This document shows, piece by piece, positions 42,821 to 43,838 of a DNA stretch of 64,000 nt; positions within the stretch are counted from its first letter, which is position 1; every line of letters begins with the position of its first letter. Location: contig SWBL01000001.1 in NCBI GenBank assembly GCA_024195585.1, positions 186,001-250,000 of the forward strand, read 5' to 3'. The stretch is from Aureobasidium sp. EXF-3400 (Eukaryota; Ascomycota; Dothideomycetes; Dothideales; Saccotheciaceae). The translations under genes and the position numbers were made by a program. The notes below the pieces were generated by a model. That model saw nothing but the letters and a program-made list of their open reading frames with translations. It had not been told where the DNA came from and made no database searches.

Positions 42821-43838
42821 TCAGATCTCGTCCATGTTACCAGCGGGTTCGTCATCCGAGTCGAAACTGCCTACGCTGCTCATTTCATCATCGTCGTCCG
42901 AGTCTTCGCCTGCCTCCTCTGCTGCCTCTCTCGATGCGTACTTGGAAACGTATTCTGACAGCGATTAGTCGTGTCGTTGATGTCAAATACTTCGCACTTC
43001 TCTTACCCTTGACCTTAGCTTCGTACGTCTTTGGCTCCCTCATCATCAAAGCTGCAGCCTCGCCGTTTAGGGGATCCGTCGGGTTGGGGTAGCGCAACAG
43101 TTGGGGAAGGAACACCTCGAAGATATTGACCATTTCGTACATTGGTGACCATGTTTGGTTGATGACGTCGAGGCAGACGCTGCCGGATCTGAAGCATTAT
43201 CAGGCCACGAACTCTTGTCCAGCGTTACCAGAATGTATCTTACAGCTCGTCAATGTTGGGGTGGAAGATGCGGTTCACAAACCCAATGCTGGGGCTCTTG
43301 TAAGGGTACTGGTCAGGCAGCTCAACGTGGATCTTCCAGAGACCGCCCTGGAAGGGTGCTGTGAGTTGTTTCAGCACAAAATTCTCGTTGTGTCGACGTC
43401 AACAGCGTCTCTTACTCTCTTCTGGACCCTTGAATCGGACAAAGAACTCCTGCCTGCGCGCCACGTCAGCAACCTTTGTAACGACGGATTGGAGTCGGAT
43501 GATCGGGTACGAACACTACAAGATGAGTTAGCAGATGCATATTTCAGGGACACGACTAGGTACAATCATACTGTTGTCGTTGACCAGAGTGACTTCGTAG
43601 TCGCTCATCATCCTAGCCCAGTCGTCAGAGATGCACGGGGTGGCACAAGTTGTCGTTCATACGTACATCCTGTCACCAGTTAGTATACAAGATAGCGGCT
43701 GCTTTGGGTGTATTTGCGACTTACTTCATCACCTATAAGCAGAGCAAGAAGAAAGTGTTAGCCCATGCTAGTCTCCGACTGTTGTTCTGTTCTTCTCAAA
43801 CGTACATCCGTCTCGATTCTTCTTTTGGGACTGCTCAT
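42821..43838 (-). CDS. UBC8: Ubiquitin-conjugating enzyme E2, UBC8/UBE2H type, nine exons
   Basis: Minus-strand exons: 43806-43838 (33 nt), 43725-43732 (8), 43667-43669 (3), 43572-43612 (41), 43515 (1), 43416-43453 (38), 43244-43358 (115), 43007-43188 (182) and 42821-42954 (134). They join in frame to 184 residues starting [12 protein letters not shown]. The E2 core has [20 protein letters not shown] and the catalytic Cys in [15 protein letters not shown], then [16 protein letters not shown]. The C-terminus is acidic and Ser-rich ([20 protein letters not shown]), typical of UBC8. In yeast UBC8 serves the GID ligase that degrades gluconeogenic enzymes. The 1-nt and 3-nt exons are inferred: without the 1-nt exon the frame breaks, and without the 3-nt exon one Met is lost compared with the yeast length. 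Confidence 0.88.

Follow-up and report, generated by a model that had tools for sequence, protein, structure and literature searches.

Exons of a single nucleotide have been described in a few plant, fungal and animal genes. The nuclear APC11 gene of Arabidopsis was reported to carry a 1-nt exon (PMC4674806), and 1-nt microexons of the plant APC11 and VPS55 genes were described as conserved in land plants (PMC8831610). In fungi, a single-nucleotide exon was reported in the CYP621A gene of Fusarium and called the first in a fungal gene by its authors (PMC12940212, 2026). According to the same article, the base is a G, the gene encodes a rarely expressed P450, the exon is backed by SRA reads, and the orthologs that carry it, 20 in the results and 24 in the discussion, all belong to Fusarium or Nectria. 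A single-base exon was also described in the placozoan mitochondrial cox1 gene (PMC5436844). In a related fungal arrangement, the stwintron, an internal intron sits in a splice element of an external intron and nothing remains after splicing (PMC12403724, PMC6616335). A term search of a review on non-canonical splicing from 2026 (PMC13149111) found no terms for one-base exons, fungi or stwintrons.

The window analysed here, a stretch of 64,000 nt from Aureobasidium sp. EXF-3400, contains a UBC8/UBE2H gene in which the T at position 43515 is very probably a constitutive one-nucleotide exon lying between two sequentially removed GT-AG introns. A sequence-only reading of the window had called one-base exons extremely rare; rare they are, but cases are already on record, one of them in a fungal gene (PMC12940212), and the UBC8 exon is a newly described case beside those of plants and Fusarium. 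Like the CYP621A exon, it consists of a single base flanked directly by two short fungal introns, is needed for the frame within a conserved motif and was missed by annotation; unlike it, the base is a T instead of a G, the gene encodes a housekeeping E2 instead of a P450, and the exon probably extends over the Pezizomycotina instead of Fusarium/Nectria. With the plant exons it shares its size, a conserved housekeeping gene, a probable distribution over a large clade and widespread mis-annotation (PMC4674806, PMC8831610), and APC11, like UBC8, belongs to the ubiquitin system. By contrast, the plant exons, which are not homologous to that of UBC8, are reported as confirmed by RT-PCR and RNA-seq, and that of APC11 also by a base change. 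The placozoan cox1 gene likewise has a one-base exon but is mitochondrial (PMC5436844). Literature searches of titles and abstract openings, with most subscription papers outside their scope, turned up no paper describing micro-exons in a UBC8 gene of fungi.

Structure and reading frame of the UBC8 gene

Nine exons on the minus strand between 43838 and 42821 (Table 1) join into a coding sequence of 555 nt that encodes 184 residues without internal stop codons, provided that T43515 is kept. The product is a UBC8/UBE2H-type E2: it matches the Pfam domain UQ_con (138 bits), its closest solved structures are yeast Ubc8 (8pmq_E, 235 bits) and human UBE2H (8pjn, 232 bits), and it has the Cys motif and an acidic tail. 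Yeast Ubc8 works with the GID/CTLH E3 ligase. Of the named, annotated proteins among the matches listed, those of Aureobasidium are nearest (87-94% identity).

Table 1. Features of the UBC8 gene in the window, in the order of transcription.
Feature	Position	Strand	Length	Description
Exon 1	43806..43838	-	33 nt	11 residues
Exon 2	43725..43732	-	8 nt	GTGATGAA; counterpart in the second copy, GTCATGAA
Exon 3	43667..43669	-	3 nt	GAT
Exon 4	43572..43612	-	41 nt	3' end GTC AAC GAC AAC A
Intron 4	43516..43571	-	56 nt	GTATGA...CTGCTAAC...TTGTAG
Exon 5 (candidate)	43515..43515	-	1 nt	T, middle base of the Met29 ATG codon
Intron 5	43454..43514	-	61 nt	GTTCGT...GCTGAC...GCGCAG
Exon 6	43416..43453	-	38 nt	begins G CAG GAG TTC; first letters GCAGGAGTTC at 43453
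Exon 7	43244..43358	-	115 nt	
Exon 8	43007..43188	-	182 nt	carries a 12-residue stretch with Cys85, which we take to be the catalytic residue
Exon 9	42821..42954	-	134 nt	includes the stop codon

All the sequence features put forward by the sequence-only reading were found in place when the minus strand was read directly. T43515 is preceded by AG and followed by GT, each of them part of a complete intron. Exon 4 leaves an A over and exon 6 opens with G CAG, so that the frame is one base short without T43515, which fills the gap and yields a conserved residue. When exon 4 is joined straight to exon 6 (...ACA/GCAG; 43572 to 43453), the frame shifts and a stop codon follows after 68 residues, bearing out the proposal that a single intron between these exons breaks the frame. 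The expected Met-Gln-Glu-Phe had been likened to the SMQEF segment of yeast Ubc8; in agreement with this, the alignment to 8pmq_E is gap-free across the junction and until about residue 155 (LINDSMQEF in yeast, LVNDNMQEF here). It should be noted that human UBE2H is shorter by one residue just before the Met29 site (ILG-GLNEF), hence the exact spacing at this site is not universal.

The same frameshift separates this locus from stwintrons, to which it had also been compared. Both involve two adjacent fungal introns and sequential removal (PMC12403724, PMC6616335), but a stwintron removed whole leaves nothing, and joining 43572 to 43453 puts the exons out of frame, whereas UBC8 has two complete introns that leave one base. 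A zero-length recursive splice site was likewise rejected, as TTGTAG/T/GTTCGT has one base between acceptor and donor.

All GT-AG combinations yielding one or two introns, each of at least 35 nt, were then enumerated between conserved anchors in the window gene and in the second UBC8 copy of this genome (see below). With two introns, only the 1-nt exon T gave exactly VNDNMQEF in either copy, and it did so in both; a 5-nt exon, TGTTC, gave VNDNMFEF. With a single intron, six open solutions were obtained in the window copy, all using GTACCT or GTCCCT as donor and all inserting residues, the shortest giving VNDNSMIEF; in copy 2, no GT-AG pair at least 35 nt apart provided an in-frame single intron. 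The solutions common to both copies were the 1-nt exon, the 5-nt exon and variants of the two in which the first donor lies further along and residues are inserted. In the window copy, the frame would be kept by one ordinary intron that pairs the second acceptor with a shifted donor, GTACCT at 43563; both sites stand at percentile 13.7. Since the donor site is lost in copy 2, and since this intron would insert one residue (VNDN-S-M-I-E-F) and change the conserved Gln, we find it scarcely credible. At the mRNA level, GACAACATGCAGGAGTTC would be diagnostic of the 1-nt exon, GACAACAGCAGGAGTTC of its skipping and GACAACATGTTCGAGTTC of the 5-nt exon, and the string ATGCAGGAG is incompatible with both the 5-nt exon and the displaced donor.

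A second gene copy and the strength of the splice sites

Contig C30 (locus L040) of the strain's genome (53.4 Mb in 717 contigs) carries another UBC8 gene, again with nine exons of the same lengths and with ...TAG/T/GTTCGT... at the corresponding place. The copies are identical at 500 of the 555 coding bases (stop codon included) and at 181 of the 184 residues, and therefore differ at 55 bases and three residues; around the one-base exon, both share the stretch TAGTGTTCGT. By contrast, the introns that flank T in copy 2 measure 55 and 57 nt and are identical to those of the window at 36 of 55 (intron 4) and 30 of 56 (intron 5) aligned positions. The same one-base exon is thus found in a homologous gene, and the proposal that T43515 as an exon gives Met-Gln-Glu-Phe is upheld, with an intact protein of 184 residues in the window and the same architecture on C30.

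These data also bear on a sequencing or assembly error, in which a base would be missing and a single intron of 118 nt would be real. One extra base does restore the frame, but the same one-base deficit is present in copy 2, despite its 55 coding differences and its introns of other lengths. A base-calling error is very unlikely because both copies would need to be hit at the same place. In addition, protein P0016 from Aureobasidium sp. EXF-12298, encoded on a contig of 183,923 bases (474,183 for that of the window), contains a stretch of 28 residues that equals the translation of T, intron 5 and exon 6 of the window with one residue changed, which indicates that another strain carries this stretch with its frame kept. 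We therefore regard such an error as next to impossible.

Splice sites were scored against 51 reference introns, identified ab initio from 172 kb of the genome rather than from cDNA, with codon-usage filters and 40 open codons on each side; the set was seeded with the other introns of the UBC8 gene and limited by a score threshold, both of which favour consensus-like sites. The median length of these introns was 56 nt, and the 56- and 61-nt introns of the window are accordingly normal for this genome, as the sequence-only reading had it. A single intron of 118 nt would be long by this measure (nine of the 51 fall at 89-107 nt), but length alone does not rule against it, because the reference scan ended at 110 nt. 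The reference donors include GTATGT (11 of 51), GTACGT (5) and GTTCGT (2). Among the 51 introns, intron 4 ranked at percentile 60.8 for its donor and 7.8, a weak value, for its acceptor; intron 5 ranked at 29.4, below average, for its donor GTTCGT and at 45.1 for its acceptor. The donor required by the 5-nt exon, TTC/GTACCC, scored 0.08 and lay under all 51 reference donors (percentile 0). An earlier set of 233 candidate introns was discarded, being devoid of a donor consensus and contaminated by false ORFs; against it, the intron-4 donor and acceptor of the window stood at percentiles 15.0 and 0.9 and the 5-nt-exon donor at 67.0, without separation.

When the 118-nt stretch was shuffled 20,000 times with its dinucleotides preserved, 57 shuffles contained any AG/N/GT with a branch site in both halves, three matched the observed site scores and one did so with T as the base, which places the site above chance expectation. 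One of 512 natural GT...AG 118-mers in the window qualified, this set including the T43515 site itself.

As regards the surroundings of the two genes, window positions 47414-39394 are colinear with positions 1-8393 of L040 at about 78% nucleotide identity. Many ubiquitin-conjugating-enzyme loci of this genome are paired, and the genome looks doubled or hybrid.

Annotation of related proteins at the one-base site

Other species were compared through protein models; a search with a piece spanning exons 8-9 retrieved no orthologous UBC8 DNA of other fungi among the genome and viral contigs searched. Three protein searches, of which the best 120 matches were listed out of 5,783, 5,877 and 5,717 hits, gave 260 distinct proteins; two plant proteins (P0001, P0037) were left out of the counts. 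Forty-six of the listed proteins have no NCBI source, and these look like transcript-derived sequences because contig size is stated for 45 of them and falls below 2 kb in 41. In all 46, Met is followed by Gln (43) or Ser (3), with EF at the expected distance; as these are uninterrupted open reading frames, their cleanness follows in part from the way they were selected. The site was also clean in nine of nine proteins of Lipomyces, Dipodascopsis and Saitoella (Lipomyces being spelled VNGS), which suggests that the split by a T exon may be a feature of the Pezizomycotina.

The same proteins bear on the alternative kept by the sequence-only reading, in which TGTTC (43515-43511) is a 5-nt exon that uses GTACCC as donor and GGCAG as acceptor. 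This exon is in frame in both copies, but it combines the lowest donor score noted above with the use of the second of two tandem AGs, and it would place Phe where the 46 transcript-like proteins have Gln or Ser, yeast has Gln and human has Asn. The resulting MFEF was found in none of the 260 listed proteins. We consider the 5-nt exon highly improbable and retain the one-base exon T as the reading that fits the protein family.

The rest of the listed proteins that have an NCBI source were counted as annotated Pezizomycotina (n=203, assigned by name). Models were scored as clean by length, which excluded five VNDNSMQEF sequences that are one residue too long. Among these best matches listed, only 18 of 203 were clean at the one-base site and 185 were broken; the 18 may reflect correct annotation or lost introns. 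Three control junctions in the same proteins were intact in 186, 200 and 197 of 203, showing that the models examined are not poor as a rule. At the junction that precedes the 8-nt exon, 147 of 203 were intact, so that models fail near small exons generally and not at the T site alone.

We next asked how the broken models read on the assumption of an ancestral structure AACA/GTRNGT...AG/T/GTAYGT...AG/GCAG, which predicts two error marks. In the first, the first donor is moved by 4 nt and the protein reads N-S-x-Q-E-F, that is AGT, then the two intron bases after GT, then G. This mark (VNDN-S-x-QEF) was present in 26 of 185 broken models, and in 21 of them x was Lys (12), Met (5), Thr (2) or Glu (2), corresponding to GTAAGT, GTATGT, GTACGT and GTGAGT. 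In the second, the first acceptor is used and translation reads through, giving N-M followed by a residue whose codon starts with T (from T/GT). Read-through past VNDN-M was seen in 31 models, with a compatible residue in 29 (23 Tyr, 4 Phe, 2 Ser) and with M-Y-V, expected from T/GTAYGT, in 14; the remaining two, M-H-P and M-P-N, contradict the T/GT reading. Altogether, 55 of 185 broken models carry either mark, and 130 are undecoded or, in the two cases just named, contrary to this reading. The undecoded ones comprise N-S followed by other residues (47), N-R-QEF (5), N-K-F (21), other sequences (27) and models without VTLVNDN (28). An Aureobasidium model, P0002 (VNDN-I-V-R...), is among the 130 and does not decode as a T exon.

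By our own assignment of genera to classes, the M-Y and M-F sequences come from Dothideomycetes (Hortaea, Coniosporium, Aureobasidium), Eurotiomycetes (Aspergillus, Penicillium, Paecilomyces), Sordariomycetes (Fusarium, Beauveria, Cordyceps), Lasallia, presumably of the Lecanoromycetes, and Sclerophora, and the donor-shift mark occurs in Tuber and Drepanopeziza, which we take to be Pezizomycetes and Leotiomycetes, respectively.

Two groups of annotated models recur in an identical form. The 21 that read VNDN-K-F (P0042, P0049, P0080, P0102 and 17 others) have lost Met-Gln-Glu alike in distant species. Five others (P0009, P0031, P0036, P0073, P0097) read VNDN-R-QEF at exact length; this form might arise if the one-base exon had been taken up as a mismatch when cDNA was aligned to the genome.

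Possible order of removal and likely age and breadth of the exon

Each of the two ordinary short GT-AG introns that would abut T43515 has a donor, a branch site and an acceptor of its own and would be recognised across the intron; as both are short and complete, nothing needs to define the one-base exon itself. By comparison, the one-base exon of mitochondrial cox1 is not spliceosomal. Removal of introns 4 and 5 would have to be successive, since only one base separates the TTGTAG acceptor from the GTTCGT donor and the two sites could not be bound at the same time. The joined mRNA would read AAC A-T-G CAG, encoding the conserved Met-Gln-Glu-Phe. The intron-5 donor scores 6.06 in its pre-mRNA context (AGT/GTTCGT) and 4.30 after removal of intron 4 (CAT/GTTCGT), a weak hint that slightly favours removal of intron 5 first. 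Sequential removal was likewise argued for APC11 by Guo and Liu (PMC4674806).

Regulated skipping, in which the two introns would often be removed together to give a truncated product of 68 residues and inclusion of T would control the dose, is compatible with the early stop that follows skipping and with the weak acceptor of intron 4. However, both gene copies are under protein constraint, with three residue changes per 55 base changes, which indicates that the productive form is made; some skipping would still be compatible with it. We hold skipping with such a regulatory role to be unlikely, and constitutive use of T43515 remains the preferred reading.

The one-base exon is probably shared widely among filamentous ascomycetes. 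Judging from the protein models, it likely predates the Pezizomycotina radiation, was retained in most filamentous ascomycetes and caused the failure of 185 of the 203 annotated models there, although with somewhat less assurance than we attach to the exon in the window. The classes concerned by such an ancient origin would be Dothideo-, Eurotio-, Sordario- and Lecanoromycetes and probably also Leotio- and Pezizomycetes. The UBC8 exon would then probably be much older than that of CYP621A in Fusarium. What stands out in the finding is the likely age of the exon and its likely spread: it would rank with the oldest and most widely distributed one-base exons known, located two exons after a 3-nt exon. 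Exon definition is hardly feasible for a single base, so such exons offer natural tests of intron definition and sequential splicing. In addition, the absence of the expected sequence at the T site from 185 of the 203 examined annotated Pezizomycotina UBC8 models points to a systematic error, and faulty models affect the phylogeny, structure prediction and functional studies built on them.

The 3-nt exon GAT, which follows the 8-nt exon, is kept in both gene copies (positions 4152-4154 of L040), within GACAG/GAT/GTACGT in the window and GACAG/GAT/GTATGT in copy 2. Among the 203 annotated relatives, this region has the right length in 52 and is exactly one residue short in 60, as expected if GAT is skipped.
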